Shown here piece by piece: positions 7,820 to 16,909 of a stretch of 22,031 nucleotides of DNA; position 1 is the stretch's first letter, and each line of letters begins with the position of its first letter. The notes beneath the pieces are model-generated. The model did no database searches. It was not told the DNA's origin and saw nothing but the letters and a program-made list of their open reading frames with translations. Both the position numbers and the translations under genes were made by a program. Source of the DNA: an uncultured Porphyromonas sp. (GTDB lineage: Bacteria; Bacteroidota; Bacteroidia; Bacteroidales; Porphyromonadaceae); assembly GCA_902465775.1 (NCBI GenBank), contig CABQOJ010000004.1, forward strand, positions 1 to 22,031. The letters are read 5' to 3'.

Positions 7820-9061
7820 TTATTTCTTAGATACTTTGTTCTGTAGGTACTTAGCAAAAGAGACTAGCTCTGGCGTATGCAGCGCCTCGTAGAGCTCCTC
7901 CTTATTATATAGTGGTCTCTCGCTCGTCTCGCCCGCATGGAGTAGGAGCTTGTAGCAGAGGACACGCAGACAGCGATCCTGGATCGTCTCCGCCGAGAGC
8001 GTGCCCGCACGATAAGCCGAGAGTAGCTCCTGGTAGCTTGCTAGCGGATCTAGGGGACCTAGGAGCAGATCGTTGCCCGCTAGGATGGCAGCCACAGATA
8101 TAGGCAAACCCTCCGCACGCTGCACCCCTCGCATCTCTAGACCATCAGTAAAAATGAGCCCCTTGAAGCCCAACTGCTCACGCAGTAGCCTCGTCACGAC
8201 AGCGTGGCTCAGTGAAGTGGGACAAGTCACGTCAGGCTCCAGAGCTGGCACCGAGAGATGCGCTACCATGATGCCCCCGAGTCCAGCCTCTATGTAGGCG
8301 CGAAAGGGGGCTAGCTCCACCCGTTCGAGCTCCTCTAGACTACCCGACACGGTGGGGAGAGTCTTGTGCGAATCCTTGTCCGTATTGCCATGCCCCGGGA
8401 AGTGCTTAGCGACCGACAGCACCCCGCCATCCTCCAGCCCTCTCGCTAAGGCTAAGCCATGCGAAATGACAATGTCCGGCGTAGCGCCTAGGCTACGGGT
8501 ACCGATGACTGGGTTCTTCGGATTATTATTGACATCCAGCACTGGCGCAAAGCTCACGTGAATGCCCATCACACGGCACTGCTGCGCCATATGTTGTCCG
8601 AGCGTGTACATTTCCTCAGGCGTGCAGTGGTCTGCCAGGAACTTCATACGCGGATAGCGTATAGTCCCCTGCAGACGCATCGCCAGCCCCCACTCCGCAT
8701 CAGCCGTGATCAGTAGCGGGATGCGAGAGCGCTCCTGAAGAAGATGCGTAAGCCGATATTGATCGTAAGGCTCCCCCTTGCGAAAGAGGATACCCCCAGG
8801 ATGAATCTGGTCTATGAGCCGCAGATAGCGCTCACGCGAAGCCGAATCATAGCGAGGCTCCCAGATCGGGATGATCAGTTGACCGATCTGCTCCTCGATG
8901 GTGAGCGTGCTAAGCCAGTCACTAGCCGCACGAACGAGCGAGTCCGAGGCACGCTCGCTCATCGGCACAAGGTGCGTAGGCAACTGCTGTGCTGTGGTAC
9001 TCCCACCAGCACAACTAACCAGCAAGCCCAGCGACATACCGACCATGGCAAGGCATCTCAT
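7820..9061 (-). CDS. GH3 family beta-N-acetylhexosaminidase-like lipoprotein
   Basis: A glycoside hydrolase family 3 enzyme of the NagZ-like branch, expected to remove terminal N-acetylglucosamine from glycans or peptidoglycan fragments. The start is taken at ATG 9059-9061 (413 residues): it follows a purine-rich AGGGGG, and the next residues are a lipoprotein signal peptide with lipobox LVSC (C17). A longer in-frame start at 9130 puts basic residues ahead of the signal and coincides with the predicted transcription start. The TIM barrel fills the rest: KHFPGHG at 219-225, the D-S-H acid/base loop at 230-232, and nucleophile D306 in FTDGLEM. There is no C-terminal serine-hydrolase-like domain as found in some larger Bacteroidota relatives. 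Probable site is the periplasm or outer membrane. The aminotransferase homologue follows in the same unit. Confidence 0.88.
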   Translation of the reverse strand: MRCLAMVGMSLGLLVSCAGGSTTAQQLPTHLVPMSERASDSLVRAASDWLSTLTIEEQIGQLIIPIWEPRYDSASRERYLRLIDQIHPGGILFRKGEPYDQYRLTHLLQERSRIPLLITADAEWGLAMRLQGTIRYPRMKFLADHCTPEEMYTLGQHMAQQCRVMGIHVSFAPVLDVNNNPKNPVIGTRSLGATPDIVISHGLALARGLEDGGVLSVAKHFPGHGNTDKDSHKTLPTVSGSLEELERVELAPFRAYIEAGLGGIMVAHLSVPALEPDVTCPTSLSHAVVTRLLREQLGFKGLIFTDGLEMRGVQRAEGLPISVAAILAGNDLLLGPLDPLASYQELLSAYRAGTLSAETIQDRCLRVLCYKLLLHAGETSERPLYNKEELYEALHTPELVSFAKYLQNKVSKK

Positions 9062-9134
9062 CAGCCCCCTGCCTTGTAACTCTTCGCTGAGCGAAACGAA
9101 CCAACGCTCTAACCGCTTCGTATACTTCATACTG

Positions 9135-9142
9135 CAAAGATA
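9135..9142 (-). promoter_or_regulatory. -7 element of the GH3 gene promoter
   Basis: TATCTTTG on the minus strand is a full match to the Bacteroidota -7 consensus. The -33 position holds a poor match (GTG around 9163-9165). Transcription would begin near 9129, which argues for the downstream ATG at 9061 and leaves a leader of about 68 bases. The heptamer array at 9172-9213 begins about 30 bases upstream of this element. Confidence 0.6.
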
Positions 9143-9171
9143 AGCTTATCTGCGCAAAGGCACACATATTT

Positions 9172-9213
9172 GGTTAGAGGTTAGGGGCTAGAGATTAGAA
9201 GTTAGAGGTTAGA
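9172..9213 (-). repeat. Six tandem 7-base repeats (TCTAACC on the minus strand)
   Basis: Six unbroken 7-base units are visible on the plus strand: GGTTAGA, GGTTAGG, GGCTAGA, GATTAGA, AGTTAGA and GGTTAGA. On the minus strand, the coding direction of the GH3 gene, they read as variants of TCTAACC. The array ends about 29 bases before the GH3 -7 element. The same heptamer occurs upstream of the gene at 16910 in the same relative orientation. Confidence 0.9.
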
Positions 9214-9218
9214 GGGTC

Positions 9219-9245
9219 CACTAGTGGCACTAGTGTCACTAGCTA
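9219..9245 (-). repeat. Three tandem 9-base CTAG-core repeats
   Basis: The units CACTAGTGG, CACTAGTGT and CACTAGCTA follow each other in exact 9-base phase. In the orientation of the GH3 gene they correspond to CTAGTGNNN units lying just upstream of the heptamers. A longer array of the same 9-mer is at 16768-16830, again placed outside its heptamers relative to the promoter it serves. Confidence 0.88.
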
Positions 9246-9300
9246 GCTGTCAGCCGCTAATCGCCAAGGACTACCTCTACTCTCGAGAAAACCTCTGATT

Positions 9301-9460
9301 TCTTCGGAGGAGTTTTTGATTCTCCACCGAGGAACGAATCATTTCTTCGGAAGAACGAAATGAAACTTCGGAGGAATGAAATGAAACTTCGGAGGAATTG
9401 GTCGGTTCCTCCGCTGGAACTGGCGAGTTCCTCGGTTGGAACCAGAAAGTTCCAAGGGGG
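9301..9460. repeat. CTTCGGAGGAA / CCGAGGAA repeat-rich intergenic block
   Basis: Two identical 21-base units sit head to tail at 9357-9377 and 9378-9398; each contains GAAACTTCGGAGGAA. Around them are degenerate relatives (TTCGGAAGAAC, CCGAGGAACGAA) and alternating GGAAC/GTTCC words. A 22-base segment at 9376-9397 matches the complement of 16654-16675 at 21 of 22 positions, linking this block to the one on the far side of the LRR operon. Short open frames cross the block but translate to repetitive FRR/FLRS peptides and are not genes. Together with the arrays at 9172-9245 it fills the gene-free gap 9143-9553. Confidence 0.8.
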
Positions 9461-9489
9461 AAACTGTTTTTGGAACTCATATATACCTC

Positions 9490-9530
9490 GCAGACAGGTC
9501 GATGCGAGTGAAGCAATCAACGCTGTCTGC
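9490..9530. other. 8-base inverted repeat downstream of the third LRR gene
   Basis: GCAGACAG at 9490-9497 and CTGTCTGC at 9523-9530 are perfect inverted repeats with a 25-base spacer. It begins 23 bases past the stop of the LRR gene ending at 9554, so it may help end the operon or protect its transcript. No T-run follows on the minus strand, so it is not a classic terminator. Confidence 0.35.
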
Positions 9531-9553
9531 TTAGGTGTCGTCTCGGATAGAGC

Positions 9554-12136
9554 CTATCTCACGAGTACCTTGTGCGCCTTCCCGTCTATGGATACGATGT
9601 AGGTAGCGTTGGAGAGGTCTCGGATCGTGGTAGCTCGGAGTGGCTCCGTGACGAGGCTAGCGATCACATTGCCAGCGGGATCGTAGACGATGAGGTGGGA
9701 CTCTTGTGGGGTAGTCACCTCAATGGTGTGCGGCGCTGTCGTGATGCGATAGGAGGTCTCGTCGATGGGTTCGATGCTGTTGGGACAGCCAGAGCCGTCG
9801 CCTGTTACATCGACTTTCCAGCCTTTTTGCGTGGCTAGGTCGGTCTTGGCGGTCGCCACCTCGGGATTGCCTGCGATGCGGAGCTCTCCACCGATTACCT
9901 TAGGCAATAACTCGAAGAGCTGATTCATATCGCAGGGCTTGATGGCGCACTTGTCTACCGCTAGGTAGTTTAGCTTGTTGCAACTGCCTAGCGTTAGGCT
10001 CTGGAGCGGGTTCTGAGTCAGCTGCACTTTGGTCAGGCTGGGCGACTCGGGGATCTCCAGTCTGGTGAAGCCGCACTCCATCGCTGAGAATTGTTGTAGT
10101 GCCGAGTTTGGCGCGAAGGTTATCTGCGTGAGATTCGGATTGACGGAGCAGAAGAGGCGGTTGAGCTTCGCACACTTAGAGACATCTAGCTGGGTCAAGA
10201 GATTGGATCCACAAGCAAATCCCTTCAAGCTCTCGCAAGCATCAAGGCTTAGCTTTTTGATCTGGTTATTGGCACAGCTAAACTCTTCGAGCTTCTTGCA
10301 GTTTGACAGGTCAAGCTCCTGAATGCGATTAGTATGACACATGATAAGCGTCGCCCTAGAGAGCTTCGAGAGGTCGAGCTGCTCGATGTTATTGGCACTA
10401 CACTCTAGCTCTTCGATGAGCTTGCAGTGAGAGATGTCTAGGCGATCAATCTTATTTTCGTAGCAGTAGAGATACTGCAGGAAGTTGAGCCCAGTGAGGT
10501 CTAGCACCTTGATCTGATTCTTGCCACAGCTTAGGTCTGCTAGGTAGAGGCTACCACTAACGTTGATGGAGGTGATAGCGTTTTCGTGGCAGTAGAGGGT
10601 GGCTAGGTCAGGATTGTTTGAAGCATCGATAGCAGTGATGGCCTCCCCGTTCTTACTACAGCTGAAGTCGACCACTTTGCTGTGTAGACGCACTGTGCTA
10701 CCTGGGCATGCGATGTGAAACTCTGAGGGCTTGTCGTAGTCGGAGCTGATGAGCATCTTCTGAAAGATGCCTGGAGTCGCTTCTATCCAGACGTAGGAGT
10801 TAGGCTCGTAAACACGCATCGTCACCGTAATGTCGCTCCCGGGCTTGGTCGTTAGCGTGATGACAGGGGTACCCGCAGGGGGAGCCTCCACACCTCCCGA
10901 GGGGCAGCCTGTGTTGTCGCCCTGTACGTCTACCTTCCAGTTTCTCTGCTGAGCAAGTGTCGTGGTAGAGGTGGTGGCACCTGGATTGCTGACGATCGAT
11001 AGATTGCCCTGCTCCTGAGGCGTCGGGAGAGAGCGAAAGAGGTCGTTCAGACTGCAGGCGTCCATGTTGTTTTCATCGGCAGATAGGTGGACGAGAGCTT
11101 TGCAGTCGGTCACATCTAGTGCGGTGAGCTGATTGGCGTATATGGAGAGTCTCTCCAGTGCTGCAAAGCCTGTGAGAGCGATCGAGGAGAGCTTGTTATT
11201 GCTCGCGTTGAGACTGTTGAGGAGCGTGCAACCAGCTATCTGTAGCTGAGTGATCTGATTGTCCGAGCAAGAGAGCGTGGTGAGCGTCGCGCGGGAAGCT
11301 GTGAGGTCGAGCTGGGTGAGTTTATTCTCTGAGCAGTCGACACTCGTGAGCTTAGGTGATAAATGGAGATCCAGAGCGGTCAACTGATTATCGTAAATGT
11401 CCAGGTCCTCCAGCAGAGGCAACTTGCTCAGGTCTAGGCTCTGAATCTTATTTTGGTAAGCGGAGAGGACGCTTATCTCATTGGTCGCAGGGAGTGCGAT
11501 GGATGCGATCTGGTTTTCTCCAGCATAGACCGCCTGTAGCTTGAGACAGGCGGAAAGGTCTAGGGCGGTGAGAGCGTTTTGGGCGCAGTTCATCTTCTGT
11601 AGCTTTACCGCACTTGAGAGGGCTAAGGAGGAGAGCTCGTTCTTAAAGCAGGAGAGCTCCTCAAGGGCTGCACAGCCCGACAGATCGAGTGACGTAAGCG
11701 CATTCGTGGCGCAGCTCAGGAGACGAAGCTTCGTGCACCCCTTGACGGACAGCGTGGTGAGCGCATTATCGTTGCAGTAGAGCTGCTCGAGAGAAGTAAA
11801 GTTCGTTGCGTCTAGTCCTGTGATGACCGCTCCATTGGCAGGGCAGCCGAAGATATGGAAGGCGCCATAGATCTTCACTCGCCCAGAGCTGGAGGAGTAC
11901 TTAAAGACTGTCGGCACGGTAGGATTGTCACCAATAGAGAGCGGCGTAAACTGCCCATCTTGTAACTCTATCCAAGCTTGTCGTGCGTCAGATCTCGCTA
12001 TGAGACCAAACTGAAACTCTTCGCCAGGCTGTACCTCTAGCGTGATATGCTTCGTTCCCGTCGGGGGAACACTCTGCCCCCACATCATGGATGTGGCGAG
12101 CAGAGTGAGTATGAGTAGGAGAGCTTTCTTTGTCAT
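9554..12136 (-). CDS. Secreted two-module LRR protein with T9SS sorting domain
   Basis: The 860-residue protein starts with a signal peptide (1-20, cut likely before QS). It holds two homologous modules: 24-412 and 422-784. Each begins with a beta-sandwich-like segment (ITLEV.PGEEF and ITLTTKPGSDI), continues with internalin-like repeats of about 20-21 residues with a C/A-x-x-N pattern (LSCATNALTSLDLSGC, LYCHENAITSINV), and ends with an NDLF/NQLF..LP segment and WKVDV.GD..GCP. The last 70 residues (790-860) form a type A T9SS sorting domain: PAGNVIASL, then ATYIVSIDGKAHKVLVR. It is expected to cross the outer membrane through T9SS and be anchored on the surface or released. Its role is probably protein or host-surface binding, by analogy with other LRR proteins. 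It is third in its operon, 29 bases after the previous gene. Confidence 0.9.
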   Translation of the reverse strand: MTKKALLLILTLLATSMMWGQSVPPTGTKHITLEVQPGEEFQFGLIARSDARQAWIELQDGQFTPLSIGDNPTVPTVFKYSSSSGRVKIYGAFHIFGCPANGAVITGLDATNFTSLEQLYCNDNALTTLSVKGCTKLRLLSCATNALTSLDLSGCAALEELSCFKNELSSLALSSAVKLQKMNCAQNALTALDLSACLKLQAVYAGENQIASIALPATNEISVLSAYQNKIQSLDLSKLPLLEDLDIYDNQLTALDLHLSPKLTSVDCSENKLTQLDLTASRATLTTLSCSDNQITQLQIAGCTLLNSLNASNNKLSSIALTGFAALERLSIYANQLTALDVTDCKALVHLSADENNMDACSLNDLFRSLPTPQEQGNLSIVSNPGATTSTTTLAQQRNWKVDVQGDNTGCPSGGVEAPPAGTPVITLTTKPGSDITVTMRVYEPNSYVWIEATPGIFQKMLISSDYDKPSEFHIACPGSTVRLHSKVVDFSCSKNGEAITAIDASNNPDLATLYCHENAITSINVSGSLYLADLSCGKNQIKVLDLTGLNFLQYLYCYENKIDRLDISHCKLIEELECSANNIEQLDLSKLSRATLIMCHTNRIQELDLSNCKKLEEFSCANNQIKKLSLDACESLKGFACGSNLLTQLDVSKCAKLNRLFCSVNPNLTQITFAPNSALQQFSAMECGFTRLEIPESPSLTKVQLTQNPLQSLTLGSCNKLNYLAVDKCAIKPCDMNQLFELLPKVIGGELRIAGNPEVATAKTDLATQKGWKVDVTGDGSGCPNSIEPIDETSYRITTAPHTIEVTTPQESHLIVYDPAGNVIASLVTEPLRATTIRDLSNATYIVSIDGKAHKVLVR

Positions 12137-12165
12137 GGCTTCGTCTATTGATTATACTGATAGAT

Positions 12166-14025
12166 CTAGCGTACGAGGAGGGACGCCGTGGCGTAGCTCC
12201 CGTCCGCTCTATTGAGCAGTACGACATACTTGCCAGTCGCTAGGGAGAGCGCCAGTGAAGTTGCTCCAGAAGGCTCGAGACGAGCAACGACAGCGCCCGA
12301 GAGGTCCACGATCATGAGCGACGTGACGGAGAGCGCACTCTCTAGGTGAAGCTGCTGCGCCTCGCTGTCGTAGTAGACGCGTAGGTCGTCTGCGATGGAG
12401 GCGGGCGTGTTGATGCCGTTGAAGTAACCGTCGACCGTTAGTTCCCAAAAGCCTGATCGGAGTGTCGGCTGCAGGTCGTCAGACTCCACCCCTTCGCCAT
12501 CGTCGGCCCGTAGCGCCGAGCGTGGCTGTGTGCTACCCATCTTACCACTCGTGATGAGGCATACGTAGCGGCAAGCGTCCTCTTTGGAGACCCCTTGGAG
12601 CGTTAGCTTAGCCTCATTAGCGTTGGGGACAGGCTGTAGTGTGGTCATATTGTACCACCGATAGTGTTCGTCGCCGATGAGCGAGCCGGGATAGGTCGCG
12701 TCAAAGGTAACGTTGCTACCTGACTTGACGCTCTCCTTATGAAGCTCACTGTAAGCTTGCTGCATGCCAAAGCGGAAGATGCAGTCTTTGTTTTTGATGA
12801 ATCGATCCCACGCCTTAAAGTCCGCAAAGGAGAAGCGACAACTTCGTATGTCGATCATGTCTAGGTTCTTGAGCTTCTTGTAGATCGCTGGCACGCTACC
12901 TGAGAGGTTGTTGTTTCTCAGGGAAATCTTGCCCAGCGTCGTCGCACCCTGCCACGTAGCGGGGATGGCGCCTGTGAACTGGTTGTAGCCTAGATCCAAG
13001 TACCAGAGCTTCGTCGGCAGCACTTGTGGCAATGGACCCGTGAACTGGTTGTGATCGGCAAAGAAAGCTTCGCAACTCTCCATCGTGCCTAAGTCCTGTG
13101 GCAGAGGGCCTGTGAACTTATTGTTGGCACAGGAGAAGCGCTGCAGGCGAGGTAGCATCACGACGCTCTCGGGGAAGGGGCCTGTGAACTGATTGTCGTT
13201 GAGGTAGAGTCGTCCCGGCTCCGTAACGCCCATACCCAGATCTAGAGGCATCCCTAAGTTGATGAGGGAACTCAGATCTGGTATCTCACCGCTCATCTTA
13301 TTATTTTGGACAGAGAGGATCTGTAGGTCGGCACACTCACTGATAGAAGCAGGTATAGAGCCCGTCAGCTGATTGAAGGAAAGCTCTAGAACCTGCAGAT
13401 TGCGACAGAGACCGATCTGCTCGGGTAGCTGACCAGAGAGATTGGAGTAGGAAGCATCGATATACTCTAGCTGAGGCATCTTAGAGATGTCAGGCAGCGT
13501 GCCGGTCACCTCGGAGATCACATTGCCTTTGGCATCCTTATTATAGAAGTTTGCCAAGTGTAGGATCTTCAGATTGACCAGCTTATCTAAGTTAGGCAGC
13601 TGGCCCATCCATAGATTGGTACTGAGCGTGAGTCCCTCTAGCTTAGTCATTTCGCCAAGCGCCTCGGGAATAGGTCCCGAGAGCTTATTATTGGACAACC
13701 CCAAGAGTCGTAGCTCGGGGAATGCGGTGAAAAAGCTTTTCGGCAGTTGTCCCGTCAGTCCGACCCCGTCGAGAGCAATGCCCTGTACGTGTCCGCTTTG
13801 GATGATTACGCCAGCGTACTTCTCTGGACCTGAGGCAGCACGCCAGTTGTACCCCTCAGCCCAACCCGTGCCACCGCACTGGTCGTAGATCTCGAGGAGT
13901 GCCTTCTGCTCCGATGCAGGGATGACGCTCTGAGCTTGTAGCGAGGAGCTAGTGCTCCCCCAGCCGAAAAGGAGGAGGAGACTAGCTAGTATGATCGTAT
14001 AGAGTCGTGATTGCTTAGCGTACAT
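12166..14025 (-). CDS. Secreted plant-type LRR protein with Ig-like and T9SS sorting domains
   Basis: I place the start at ATG 14023-14025 (619 residues), because the signal peptide (about 1-31, ending LQA) begins there and because this ATG overlaps the preceding gene's stop by 11 bases. A longer frame from 14088 lies inside that gene. After an N-cap containing GGTGWAEGYNW come about a dozen repeats of the plant-like type at about 78-395, with N-x-x-(S/T)G-x-(I/L)P (SNNKLSGPIP, NNKFTGPLP, YNQFTGAIP). An Ig-like segment at about 425-498 (C485 and C489 near its end) is followed by a linker and a T9SS sorting domain at about 545-619, ending GKYVVLLNRADGSYATASLLVR-type. The repeats suggest a binding protein on the cell surface; the ligand is unknown. 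Confidence 0.9.
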   Translation of the reverse strand: MYAKQSRLYTIILASLLLLFGWGSTSSSLQAQSVIPASEQKALLEIYDQCGGTGWAEGYNWRAASGPEKYAGVIIQSGHVQGIALDGVGLTGQLPKSFFTAFPELRLLGLSNNKLSGPIPEALGEMTKLEGLTLSTNLWMGQLPNLDKLVNLKILHLANFYNKDAKGNVISEVTGTLPDISKMPQLEYIDASYSNLSGQLPEQIGLCRNLQVLELSFNQLTGSIPASISECADLQILSVQNNKMSGEIPDLSSLINLGMPLDLGMGVTEPGRLYLNDNQFTGPFPESVVMLPRLQRFSCANNKFTGPLPQDLGTMESCEAFFADHNQFTGPLPQVLPTKLWYLDLGYNQFTGAIPATWQGATTLGKISLRNNNLSGSVPAIYKKLKNLDMIDIRSCRFSFADFKAWDRFIKNKDCIFRFGMQQAYSELHKESVKSGSNVTFDATYPGSLIGDEHYRWYNMTTLQPVPNANEAKLTLQGVSKEDACRYVCLITSGKMGSTQPRSALRADDGEGVESDDLQPTLRSGFWELTVDGYFNGINTPASIADDLRVYYDSEAQQLHLESALSVTSLMIVDLSGAVVARLEPSGATSLALSLATGKYVVLLNRADGSYATASLLVR

Positions 14026-16414
14026 AGACCTTGTAGCTTGATTGATTGACCGTAACGATATAGAGACCCTCTGCGAGTGGCAGCTCATACGTGCCAGCAG
14101 GCAAGTAGTGAGAGGCTAGCTGTAGACCGCTAGGCGAGTAGATAGAGACGAGACTCTCAGCATCAGCCAGCTCAAGGTAGAGCGCACCTTCCGCTCCGTA
14201 GACTGTTGCTGTGCCGGTCTCTTCGGCAATTTGAGCGATAGATGTGATCGTCGAGTCGACCGTGTAGTGCTTGAAGTTGCTCCACGTATCGGCTGCCTGG
14301 TAAGCCTTCTGGATCTCCTCCGAAGCGACAACGATCGTTACCGTCTCGTAGTGCTCCTCGGTGAAAGCGTTCTCTGACGTGACAGGAGGCTCCTGGCGAA
14401 GCGTCGTGATCGTCTTAAGCGAATCACAAGCTAAGAAAGCCATATCCTTGATCTCGTTGACGTTTTCGCCAAGCCAGATCTGCTTGATGTGTGAGCAATT
14501 GGCAAAAGCTTCCTCGCCTATGTCCGCAACCTTCTTAGGAAAGCGAACCTCCTGCAGCGAAACACAGTCGAAGAAGCCGTAGTCTGGTATCAGCTCGATG
14601 CTATCGGGGAGGACGATTGACTCTAGCGAAGCGCAACCATGGAAGACGCTCTCGCCAAGGTTCAGAGCCGTCTGAGGTAGTGCTATACTACGCAAAGCGG
14701 AGCAGTAACTAAAGGCCTCCTCCTCAATCGTAGTCAGCCCCTCCGGTAGCACGACCTCCTCGAGGAGCATAGCTTGACTACAGCTAGAGGCAGGGATCGT
14801 CGTGAGCTGCTTCGGATAGGTCAGCTTGCGTAGCTGAGCGTAGTCCTTGAAGCTGAAGCCCTCTAGCGGATTTGCCTCAGCATCGTAAGTAACCTCGCCG
14901 AGGTCTAGCTCCTGCATACGGGGAAGCTGTGCGAGCGCCTCCAGGTCGGCACTCGTTATCGTACCCGTGAGCTTGACCGCACGGTATAGCTCGGGCGTAG
15001 TCAGTGCTGTGACGGTACCCTCTAGCGGTTTCTCGGCAGAGACCGCAGCCGTGAGTGTCAGCATCTCCGATACGTTAGCAAACTCCTTCCACTGCTTGGC
15101 AGCTGCATAAGCAGCCTTGGTTCCCTCAGGTACGATGAGCGTGAGGTCGCTCATAGCAGAGAGGTCGGCTAGGCCAGCTAGATCCTCCGCCTTGTTAGAA
15201 ACGACAGGTGTCGGGTTGGTCACGATCAAGGTTTTGAGCGAATCGCAACCGCCGAAGGCCTTGTCGCTCATCTTCTTCATCGAGCGAGGTAGCGTCACCG
15301 TTTTGAGGCTCTTACAATTGGCGAAAGCGCCATATAGTATCTCCTCACACGCATCAGGTATCGTTAGTTCTGTGATCGCTGTGCGAGCGAAAGCTCCGCC
15401 CATAAGTGTCTTAAGCTTCGAGGGTAAGATAACATTAGCAAGTGCTTCGCAGCCACTGAAGGCGAACCCTCCGATCTTTGTCACACCAGCGGGGATCATG
15501 ATCTTCTTCAGTGCCTTACAGTTCTTAAATGCGTTGTCACCGATGGTCTCCATAGCTACACTCTGTATACTGACACTGGTGAGCGCCTCGCAATCACTGA
15601 AGGCGTCATGCTCGATGGTGCGCATCAGGGGTGGTAGTTGTATTTCGGAGAGATTCGTGCAGCCTTCGAAAGCAAAGGCTCCAATCTTCTTAAGGAACTT
15701 CGGCATATCTAGCTCCTCGAGAGAGGTGCACCCCTTGAATGTAGCAAACGGTATCTCCTGTAGTGTCGGAGGCAGCGTCACCTCGGAGAGCGCTGCACAA
15801 CCATCGAAGACAGAGCCTCCCATTGAGACGACGCTTTCGGGGAGCTCTACAGACTCCAGAGCCTTACACCTTTCAAACGTTGCTCCTGCTAGCGTGTCGA
15901 TGCTCTCGGGTAGCTGGATAGCCGTTAGGCTCTCGCAGTAACCAAAAGCCATCTCGCCGAGATAGGTAAGCCCCTCGGGCAGATGTATCTCGGTCAGCTT
16001 GGTCCCGTTTTGCAGACAGCGGAGCCCTAGTCGAGTCACGCTGTTAGGGAGCGTGATAGAGGTGAGACTTTCTGCTAGTGTGCCTGCAAAGAGGAAGTAG
16101 CCTGGCATCGTACCAGGCACGGTCTGGACCTCCTCCGATGTGTTGGGGTTGCCCTTGTAGCTACCGCCAGCGACGATCTCCACGTCAGAGAGATCAAGCG
16201 TGGTGATGCCAGCTGTGTTTCTCAAGGCTCCAAAGTCGTTTGCATTGAGTGAGCCCTTAATTACGAGATTGGATAGCTCGGTTGTTTCGCTCAGCTTCTT
16301 CTGGAGCGTGCCTGGCTCTGTGACCTCGATCGTGGTCTGAGCCGATAGTGACGCTACGCCCAACCACAGGAGCAGGGAGAGCGCACAGGTTAATAATGAG
16401 TAGTAATGCTTCAT
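14015..16414 (-). CDS. BspA-like (LRR_5) secreted protein with T9SS sorting domain
   Basis: The 799-residue protein has a signal peptide (1-25, cut before QTT). Its repeats are of the BspA/LRR_5 (Treponema pallidum LRR) class, about 23 residues with the pattern AF-x-x-C-x-x-L-x-x-I-x-LP-x-x-(V/L). There are two modules. Module 1 (27-450) and module 2 (465-720) each open with a helical/strand segment (TLQKKLSETTELSNL; TTPELYRAVKLTGTI), carry a run of repeats and close with an I(V)VP.GT..AYAAAKQW-type cap. A type A T9SS sorting domain (about 735-799) ends GLYIVTVNQSSYKVYVR. BspA relatives in oral Bacteroidota bind fibronectin, fibrinogen or other bacteria; a similar adhesin role is inferred. 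It is first in the operon, with the promoter at 16502-16532. Confidence 0.92.
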   Translation of the reverse strand: MKHYYSLLTCALSLLLWLGVASLSAQTTIEVTEPGTLQKKLSETTELSNLVIKGSLNANDFGALRNTAGITTLDLSDVEIVAGGSYKGNPNTSEEVQTVPGTMPGYFLFAGTLAESLTSITLPNSVTRLGLRCLQNGTKLTEIHLPEGLTYLGEMAFGYCESLTAIQLPESIDTLAGATFERCKALESVELPESVVSMGGSVFDGCAALSEVTLPPTLQEIPFATFKGCTSLEELDMPKFLKKIGAFAFEGCTNLSEIQLPPLMRTIEHDAFSDCEALTSVSIQSVAMETIGDNAFKNCKALKKIMIPAGVTKIGGFAFSGCEALANVILPSKLKTLMGGAFARTAITELTIPDACEEILYGAFANCKSLKTVTLPRSMKKMSDKAFGGCDSLKTLIVTNPTPVVSNKAEDLAGLADLSAMSDLTLIVPEGTKAAYAAAKQWKEFANVSEMLTLTAAVSAEKPLEGTVTALTTPELYRAVKLTGTITSADLEALAQLPRMQELDLGEVTYDAEANPLEGFSFKDYAQLRKLTYPKQLTTIPASSCSQAMLLEEVVLPEGLTTIEEEAFSYCSALRSIALPQTALNLGESVFHGCASLESIVLPDSIELIPDYGFFDCVSLQEVRFPKKVADIGEEAFANCSHIKQIWLGENVNEIKDMAFLACDSLKTITTLRQEPPVTSENAFTEEHYETVTIVVASEEIQKAYQAADTWSNFKHYTVDSTITSIAQIAEETGTATVYGAEGALYLELADAESLVSIYSPSGLQLASHYLPAGTYELPLAEGLYIVTVNQSSYKVYVR

Positions 16415-16501
16415 ATGCTATTTGGTTTGATTGATGTCGTCTAGATGTCGTTTTTTGGGAAACGATCGCCTTAACTTCAAGCTTCGTAGCGTTGGCTACC
16501 A

Positions 16502-16532
16502 CAAAGATAACAGTTCTTCTTAAGAAAAACAA
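16502..16532 (-). promoter_or_regulatory. Promoter of the LRR surface-protein operon
   Basis: On the minus strand TTG (plus 16530-16532) is followed after exactly 20 bases by TATCTTTG (plus 16502-16509), a full match to the Bacteroidota promoter pattern. Transcription would start near 16495, leaving a leader of about 80 bases before the BspA-like gene. It is divergent from the promoter at 16882-16889; the repeat-rich block lies between them. Confidence 0.8.
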
Positions 16533-16610
16533 GTTGTACGAGCCGATCCGTCTGTCGTAGCCTGAGGCTTTTTCGTGGGGAATCCAAATTTCCACCAAGC
16601 TATTTTTTAT

Positions 16611-16757
16611 TCTTCACCGAGGTACGAAAAAAAACTTCGGACTTATGAAATGGTTCTTCCGAAGTTTCATTTCATAAGTCCGAAGTTTTATTTTTCGCCT
16701 CCGTGGGGGATTTCCGTTTTCTACCGAGGTAATTGCGATTTCCTCGCGGGGATGCAT
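16611..16757. repeat. ACCGAGG / TTCGGA repeat block with 21-base-pair hairpin
   Basis: The block contains a perfect 21-base inverted repeat: left arm 16631-16651 and right arm 16669-16689, each with AACTTCGGACTTATG or its complement, around a 17-base loop. The loop carries TTCTTCCGAAGTTTC, part of a 22-base match (21 identical) to the complement of 9376-9397. TCTTCACCGAGGTACGAA at 16611-16628 also resembles 9321-9338 at 16 of 18 positions. ACCGAGGTAA recurs at 16724-16733. A small open frame across the region is only repeat translation. With the arrays that follow, this accounts for the gene-free gap 16415-16909. Confidence 0.85.
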
Positions 16758-16767
16758 TAGCTCTTGG

Positions 16768-16830
16768 CTAGTGTCTCTAGTGCCTCTAGTACTCCTAGTG
16801 CCACTAGTGCTTCTAGAAATCCTAGAATCT
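16768..16830 (+). repeat. Seven tandem 9-base CTAG-core repeats
   Basis: Seven units start every nine bases at 16768, 16777, 16786, 16795, 16804, 16813 and 16822. All begin CTAG, five begin CTAGT and four begin CTAGTG; the last three bases vary freely (TCT, CCT, CCA, CTT). This is the longer partner of the three-unit array at 9219-9245. CTAG is rare in many bacterial genomes, which makes the density noticeable. Confidence 0.92.
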
Positions 16831-16857
16831 CTAACGTCTAATCTCTAACCTCTAACC
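16830..16857 (+). repeat. Four tandem 7-base repeats (TCTAACC)
   Basis: TCTAACG, TCTAATC, TCTAACC and TCTAACC follow directly on the 9-mer array, with a decayed fifth unit, TCTGGGA, at 16858-16864. The array ends about 24 bases before the -7 element of the plus-strand gene at 16910, closely matching the arrangement in front of the GH3 gene. Confidence 0.9.
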
Positions 16858-16881
16858 TCTGGGAGATTGCGCTATTTTTGG

Positions 16882-16889
16882 TATCTTCG
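16882..16889 (+). promoter_or_regulatory. Probable -7 element of the DUF2027 gene
   Basis: TATCTTCG differs at one base from the Bacteroidota TAnnTTTG consensus and lies 20 bases before the ATG. The -33 position falls in the last decayed heptamer (CTG at 16859-16861, 20 bases upstream). A very short leader would result. Confidence 0.45.
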
Positions 16890-16909
16890 CATAGAAATAG
16901 AAATCAGCA

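Follow-up and report, generated by a model that had tools for sequence, protein, structure and literature searches.

Among bacterial heptamer repeats are the short tandemly repeated (STRR) heptamers of cyanobacteria, for which we know of no composite layout and whose units differ from those found in Porphyromonas. Heptamer repeats are known in several bacterial groups (PMC4679880, PMC4692102). According to the available text of PMC4679880, intergenic TAACTGA heptamers occur in Beggiatoaceae, cyanobacteria, and five Bacteroidetes, in some of which other heptamers lie alongside; in the main genome, the sets hold 2–6 copies and mostly face a start codon a few nucleotides away, and strains differ by indels in 7-nt steps. 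Degenerate arrays of GGGAATC or GGGGAYT, some of them inverted, are described for Xanthomonas and Nostoc, with 183–186 arrays per genome in two Xanthomonas; they are G-rich, quadruplex-forming, and under-represented between divergent genes, and the same text mentions Calothrix heptanucleotides (PMC4692102). In P. gingivalis, BrickBuilt is a minisatellite within a MITE that is present in 19 copies; it is built of a 23-nt unit, has a leader, a tail, and inverted ends, and is reported to show promoter activity (PMC4596501). Sigma-ABfr promoters of Bacteroidetes carry TAnnTTTG at −7 and TTTG at about −33 (PMC7366714).

Herein, we analyzed a 22,031-nt stretch of DNA from an uncultured Porphyromonas sp. 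(the window), in which an earlier note had read two gene-free blocks on either side of an LRR operon as copies of one fixed element: a segment with TTCYTCCGAAGTTTCATTTC, then CTAG 9-mers, then TCTAACC heptamers, then a promoter. The blocks proved to be two members of an intergenic composite repeat family of the P. uenonis/P. asaccharolytica group, two genomes of which carry about 50 heptamer arrays apiece. The unit, TCTAAYN, is 7 nt long and repeated head to tail at many intergenic places, as heptamer direct repeats are, and is identical to neither of the described units TAACTGA and GGGAATC. With the TAACTGA repeats, the arrays share the intergenic direct repetition of a heptamer, a patchy distribution, changes in 7-nt steps, and, as a bias (55 versus 20 arrays), the direction towards gene starts; however, the unit is different, and the available text on TAACTGA describes neither a 9-mer core nor recurrent inverted arms nor a spacing to a −7 box (PMC4679880). 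Like the Xanthomonas and Nostoc repeats, the arrays are degenerate and some are inverted, whereas 23 of 104 lie between divergent genes, and GGTTAGA has just GG pairs (PMC4692102); with no run of at least 3 G, a G-quadruplex repeat was rejected.

BrickBuilt is likewise a dispersed intergenic tandem repeat of the genus, but its 23-nt unit is not among the repeat periods found in the two blocks (7, 9, 14, 21, 22, and 27), and the main text of PMC4596501 mentions neither P. asaccharolytica nor P. uenonis. The box beside many arrays fits TAnnTTTG at −7, whereas TTTG at about −33 was not seen at array promoters, where heptamers stand instead (PMC7366714). Among the titles and abstract openings listed by searches of the open-access literature, from which subscription journals are mostly missing and which does not cover preprints, no description of these arrays was found. 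Intergenic heptamers facing start codons (PMC4679880) and degenerate arrays (PMC4692102) appear in the available texts; the family differs from what they describe in its unit, in its inverted arms around 9-mer cores, and in the −7 box spacing.

Two matching blocks in the window

Block 1 (− strand) separates the GH3 hydrolase gene, which starts at 9130, from an LRR gene with its 3′ end at 9554, and block 2 (+ strand) lies between two divergent genes (16414 and 16910); the neighboring genes are those of the GH3 hydrolase, three LRR proteins, and a DUF2027 protein. The LRR operon (9554–16414) encodes a BspA-type LRR_5 protein and two other LRR proteins. For comparison, we used P. uenonis DSM 23387 (G001), P. 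uenonis 60-3 (G002), an uncultured Porphyromonas (G003), a single contig of 2,186,370 bases that we take to be P. asaccharolytica (G004), another Porphyromonas (G024), Prevotellaceae bacterium Marseille-P2826 (G027), and a Bacteroidales MAG (G028).

All parts named in the earlier note are present, and the match between the blocks is real, as three scans each gave 0 matches in 100 dinucleotide-preserving shuffles. The TTCYTCCGAAGTTTCATTTC segment was found twice in block 1 (9357–9376 and 9378–9397, −) and once in block 2 (16654–16673, +), and direct reading of the 21-mer segment showed 21 of 22 letters identical between the blocks; CTAG at 9-base spacing was found at 9221–9242 and 16768–16825, and the heptamer pair TCTAACNTCTAAC once per block. 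Both blocks do show the three parts in one order (Table 1). The CTAG scan also found three CTAG at 9-nt spacing within the GH3 coding sequence (8041–8062).

Table 1. Repeat arrays, candidate promoter boxes, and dispersed repeats of the two blocks (window coordinates).
Feature	Position	Strand	Remarks
Candidate −7 box TATCTTTG, block 1 (alternative)	9135..9142	−	29 bases past array 1; motif match only; conserved in G001 and G002
Candidate −7 box TGCCTTTG, block 1	9155..9162	−	11 nt past last TCTAA; motif match only
Heptamer array, block 1, six units	9172..9213	−	TCTAACC, TCTAACT, TCTAATC, TCTAGCC, CCTAACC, TCTAACC, reading towards GH3
CTAG 9-mer core, block 1, three CTAGTG units and adjoining CTAG	9221..9246	−	Scan, 0 in 100 shuffles
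Dispersed repeat with CCGAAGTTTCATTTC 21-mers	9343..9400	.	Copies of 85–98% identity in G001, G003, G004, and G026 among the matches listed
Second dispersed repeat, 22-mer GTTCC units	9405..9486	.	Copies of 78–87% identity among the matches listed
Third dispersed repeat, contains block 2 21-mer	16602..16746	.	Copies mostly of 74–86% identity among the matches listed
CTAG 9-mer core, block 2, seven CTAG-headed units	16768..16829	+	Scan, 0 in 100 shuffles
Heptamer array, block 2, four units	16830..16857	+	TCTAACG, TCTAATC, TCTAACC, TCTAACC, towards DUF2027 gene
−7-like box TATCTTCG, DUF2027 gene	16882..16889	+	24 bases past array 2; motif match only

A promoter 24–29 bases beyond the heptamers had also been proposed. 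Boxes do stand at both distances, but as motif matches, and block 1 has a nearer candidate, TGCCTTTG, in whose place the G001 orthologue carries TGTACCTTTG. A sigma-70 promoter scan of both gaps gave 0 hits, and a terminator scan gave 0 in 16415–16909 and 2 in 9131–9553 against a shuffle mean of 0.5. At gathering scores, Rfam matched only a tRNA (199–283) in the whole window, leaving both blocks without a match. The three dispersed repeats are families in related genomes, with many copies of 74–98% identity among the matches listed. No G002 copy of the repeat at 9343–9400 is among the matches listed, and positions around 106 arrays of G001 and G004 showed no tie between its 21-mers and the heptamers. 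A near-palindrome with 45-nt arms, 80% complementary and 1 nt apart, lies between the LRR operon and the DUF2027 gene (16615–16705).

Distribution of the family

The genome search that the earlier note had proposed, for CTAG 9-mers followed by TCTAAC heptamers, was run over 84,980 species genomes and returned 19 stretches, of which 17 were from Porphyromonas (G001, G002, and G003), one from a Bacteroidales MAG, and one from Prevotellaceae bacterium Marseille-P2826. That the blocks belong to a repeat family was borne out by TCTAACNTCTAAC, with 88, 72, and 51 copies in G001, G002, and G003, against 1, 0, and 0 for a reversed-pattern control. Among 26 genomes of the genus, five (G001, G002, G003, G004, and G026) had 51–133 copies, three had one, and eighteen had none, and a longer pattern matched only the same five of 38 family genomes. 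G027, whose arrays are laid out in a similar way, had 180 copies, and G028 had four. G024 gave 51 matches to a four-unit CTAG 9-mer pattern and 0 TCTAAC heptamer pairs, and a run of five CTAG 9-mers was present in 12 of 393 genomes at the order level. The starts of the GH3 and DUF2027 genes of the window were 94.8% and 93.5% identical to G002, and 94.5% and 93.4% identical to G001, and the window was therefore taken as a close relative of P. uenonis.

Modular arms and cores

We examined 55 arrays in 40 stretches of G001 and 51 in 38 stretches of G004, the stretches having been picked for holding arrays; 52 and 51 of these arrays, respectively, lay outside the genes called by our own ORF caller. 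At its most complete, the repeat is a palindrome of (GGTTAGA)n, a 9-mer core (CTAGNNNNN or TCYGATNNC), and (TCTAACC)n, and single heptamer arms are common. An opposing arm of varying length was present at 36 of the 106 arrays; a CTAG 9-mer core lay beside 27, a TCYGATNNC core beside 21, and neither beside 58, and 51 had neither a 9-mer core nor an opposing arm. The unit is modular, with heptamer arms around a swappable 9-mer core.

The fixed three-part element of the earlier note, whether regulatory or mobile, agrees with the part order of both window blocks, but it is refuted in G001 and G004 and deserves hardly any credence. The 21-mer segment lay within 450 nt upstream of 16 of the 106 arrays, in both directions (9 and 7), and downstream of 15; CTAGTG had no constant direction relative to the heptamers (44 versus 39); and 9-mers were found without heptamers and heptamers without 9-mers. 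The note had named an unfixed order of parts and a random orientation to neighboring genes as outcomes that would count against it: the order is not fixed, and the orientation is intermediate.

Among 480 internal units of G001 and G004, defined as those with TCTAA on both sides, positions 1–5 departed from the consensus in 0.4%–5.4% and positions 6–7 in 35%–38%, the latter varying mostly among pyrimidines, which gives the consensus TCTAAYN. The consensus letter was kept at positions 2 and 3 in 477 and 478 units and at position 5 in 454. In G027, the consensus held at positions 2–4 in 231–235 of 236 internal units and at position 5 in 214 of them. Nineteen loci carry two long arms, and the agreement in the order of unit variants between the arms of one locus scored 46, against 33.9 (sd 3.0) when arms were dealt among loci (0 of 2000) and 36.5 (sd 2.6) after shuffling within the locus (1 of 2000); the longest run common to both arms was one or two units in 13 of the 19 pairs. 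At three places of G004 (1064, 1129, and 1193 kb) the 9-mer cores were near-identical, two of them over 31 nt without a difference and the third with one letter off. Another part of that genome (L109, G004:C1:303300–309300) holds two near-identical array neighborhoods about 1,060 nt apart.

In G024, CTAG cores stand between other inverted heptamers, with YRGTGG to the left of 12 of 15 cores and CCAYYR to the right of 12 of 15; arms of at least two units numbered 10 on the left and 10 on the right (wrong way round: 2 and 1, once each). Several CTAG cores of this genome (L178–L185) are bordered by a GGCTGGCGCACG-like motif or its reverse complement. A recurrent GTCCAAYCGCGCTAGCCC-like border motif lies between the CTAG core and the heptamers in G027 (L157, L158, L165, and L173), and none was seen in the Porphyromonas arrays read.

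Turnover between strains

Strains often differ in the block that precedes an orthologous gene, even where its promoter is conserved. The −7 region of the DUF2027 gene is alike in the window, G001, G002, G003, G004, and G026. Above it, the window has CTAG 9-mers and heptamers, G002 has an arm, TCYGATNNC, and heptamers, and the other four have other sequence without heptamers. Above the GH3 gene, the window again has CTAG 9-mers and heptamers, G002 a different heptamer set without 9-mers, and G001 neither. Among orthologue pairs drawn within the fetched loci, identity over the region from −200 to −50 was 75% or more in 4 of 22 pairs that have heptamers and in 7 of 11 that have none, a comparison in which the second set is small and heptamers themselves can raise alignment scores; the baseline median for 200 unrelated pairs over this region was 0.57. 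From −50 to −1, the group medians of the orthologue pairs were 0.84–0.98. The number of heptamers at the same promoter also differs, for example 15 and 8 (L056 and L010), and cores are exchanged (L051/L123 and L075/L103). Among the matches listed, the LRR operon is present in G003 and G004 and not in G001, G002, or G026. In G004 it lies at 498–504 kb beside the DUF2027 gene, whereas GH3 lies at 821 kb; G004 thus lacks the junction at which block 1 is located.

Orientation, promoter boxes, and start codons

Two of the 106 arrays were dropped, leaving 104 with usable context. In co-directional gaps, 55 arrays ran towards the 5′ end of a gene and 20 towards the 3′ end, while 23 lay between divergent genes and 6 between convergent ones. 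Since 20 of the 75 co-directional arrays ran towards a 3′ end, the orientation is a bias and not a rule, and the claim that the element settles before promoters stands only in this weaker form. For co-directional arrays without an opposing arm, the counts were 41 versus 10 (p 1.5e−5). In G027 (56 arrays in 30 stretches), there were 26 versus 13 co-directional, 10 divergent, and 6 convergent arrays, and 1 within a gene call.

A TANCTTTR (−7) box, a motif match only like every promoter considered here, lay within 120 nt of 41 of 78 gene-start-facing arrays versus 1 of 28 other arrays. In 30 of these 41, the box started at most 13 nt from the last TCTAA, with offsets of 1 (once), 5–6 (18), and 10–13 (11); 29 of the 78 arrays thus preceded a −7 box of the Bacteroidetes type by 5–13 nt, with two peaks separated by about 7 nt. 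The box of block 2, 26 nt past the last TCTAA, falls outside both main peaks. We also scanned whole genomes (G001, G004, and G026, with counts taken in the first two) for CGTAYCTTTG, so that boxes were not picked for arrays. The nearest TCTAA stood at a gap of 3, 4, 9, or 10 from 26 of 32 boxes in G004 and 27 of 30 in G001, where about 4 each were expected from a uniform spacing over 0–30, a crude null because the 7-nt array is itself periodic. For the box TCGTAYCTTTG, TCTAA lay within 30 nt in 28 of 77 cases in G004 and in 29 of 71 cases in G001. TTG stood 18–25 before the box in 0 of 35 heptamer promoters versus 10 of 34 without TCTAA (7 of 76 boxes were in neither class), an absence partly forced because heptamers occupy that place and contain no TTG. 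In a further 24 of the 78 gene-start-facing arrays, the distance from array end to start codon was at most 40 nt, and in 21 it was −1 to 14 nt. Few of the G027 arrays read adjoin a recognizable −7 box.

Possible roles and origins of the arrays

Conserved TCTAA, the −7 box spacing, and the excess of lone arrays facing genes favor a cis role of the gene-proximal arm. The explanation we prefer, plausible although a little short of probable, is a repeat family whose gene-proximal arm would be kept as a DNA-level cis element amid turnover by slippage, template switching, and recombination. Slippage would lengthen and shorten the arrays, template switching within the inverted repeat would homogenize the arms, and recombination would copy cores from one locus to another; template switching has been described for yeast and E. 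coli (PMC8604942, PMC7202029, available text). With less assurance, the gene-proximal arm may be retained at the DNA level, where it might replace a weak −33 motif above the −7 box or serve as a leader beside the start codon, and array changes might thereby tune expression. The frequent end of arrays at a set distance from a gene start signal suggests such tuning, and the heptamer repeats perhaps act at promoters and leaders. The relation to promoters can be measured: the spacing to the −7 box is a preferred one, core letters are conserved, and unit numbers are specific to the strain, while the promoters of the orthologous genes below are otherwise much alike. The question can therefore be put directly to the test with reporters and transcript mapping. 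Should the arrays prove functional, close strains would have in them a route to rewire expression with the genes unchanged.

Close behind this cis role comes the reading of the arrays as mutational by-products without function, which we regard as possible but less probable: slippage and template switching would build 7- and 9-mer palindromes in unconstrained DNA, and selection on promoters and start codons would set the limits of the arrays. It fits the extension of arrays to functional borders, the unequal unit numbers at orthologous places, the differences of blocks between strains, and the several unrelated repeat families in the same gaps. It accounts less well for the conservation of TCTAA by position inside drifting units, for the preferred spacing to the −7 box, and for lone arrays that mostly face gene starts (41 versus 10). 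The spacing would also be fixed if array and box shared their origin or if slippage began at the promoter edge. A MITE-like mobile element, with the inverted heptamer arms as its ends and moved by a transposase, is unlikely. The inverted arms at 36 of 106 arrays, the near-identical cores at three G004 places, the presence or absence at orthologous sites, and the precedent of BrickBuilt in P. gingivalis (PMC4596501) agree with it; however, no clean empty site was seen among the pairs listed, the other allele being other sequence, arm length and unit order vary, and 51 of 106 arrays have neither a 9-mer core nor an opposing arm. Of 26 genus genomes, 3 gave a match above the cut-off for a Y1 transposase of the type that moves REP elements, as did just 2 of the 5 with heptamers; there was no match in G002, G003, G026, and G024, several of which are drafts. 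Transposition by a REP/RAYT system was rejected, as 3 of the 5 heptamer genomes show no such transposase.

Very improbable is an insulator that stops translation, in which TCTAA would supply a stop on either strand (TAA on one, TAG on the other) and the 7-nt period would put stops in all frames. All 24 start-codon arrays do have stops in all three frames, but the 7-nt period makes this automatic. In G001 and G004, the stop was kept in 32 of 43 units with a single substitution, where 8 of 15 possible changes would keep it, a figure without a control for transition bias. As only 16 of 36 G027 variants kept the stop, the signal was not repeated and the insulator was rejected; many G024 and 9-mer units are also without a stop.

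A wider proposal, which we hold to be doubtful, takes 7-9-7 palindromes as an undescribed Bacteroidales intergenic class, with an exchangeable 9-mer core, often CTAG-based, between inverted arms of a lineage-specific unit (TCTAACC, TCTAACG, or CCACTGA); the arm would be an alternative −33 module in fixed phase with the −7 box, read by a lineage-specific factor. Ten CTAG arrays were re-read in three further genomes (G283, G249, and G393), of which eight were intergenic, in co-directional, divergent, and convergent gaps, and two lay in ORFs. Since the CTAG arrays of other Bacteroidales occur in all gene configurations and even in ORFs, a promoter role is ill-suited to the core. Similar CTAG 9-mer arrays, 9–57 nt from both neighboring genes, were found in three other Bacteroidales genomes (L188, L189, and L190), and their flanking genes look orthologous by their flanks.
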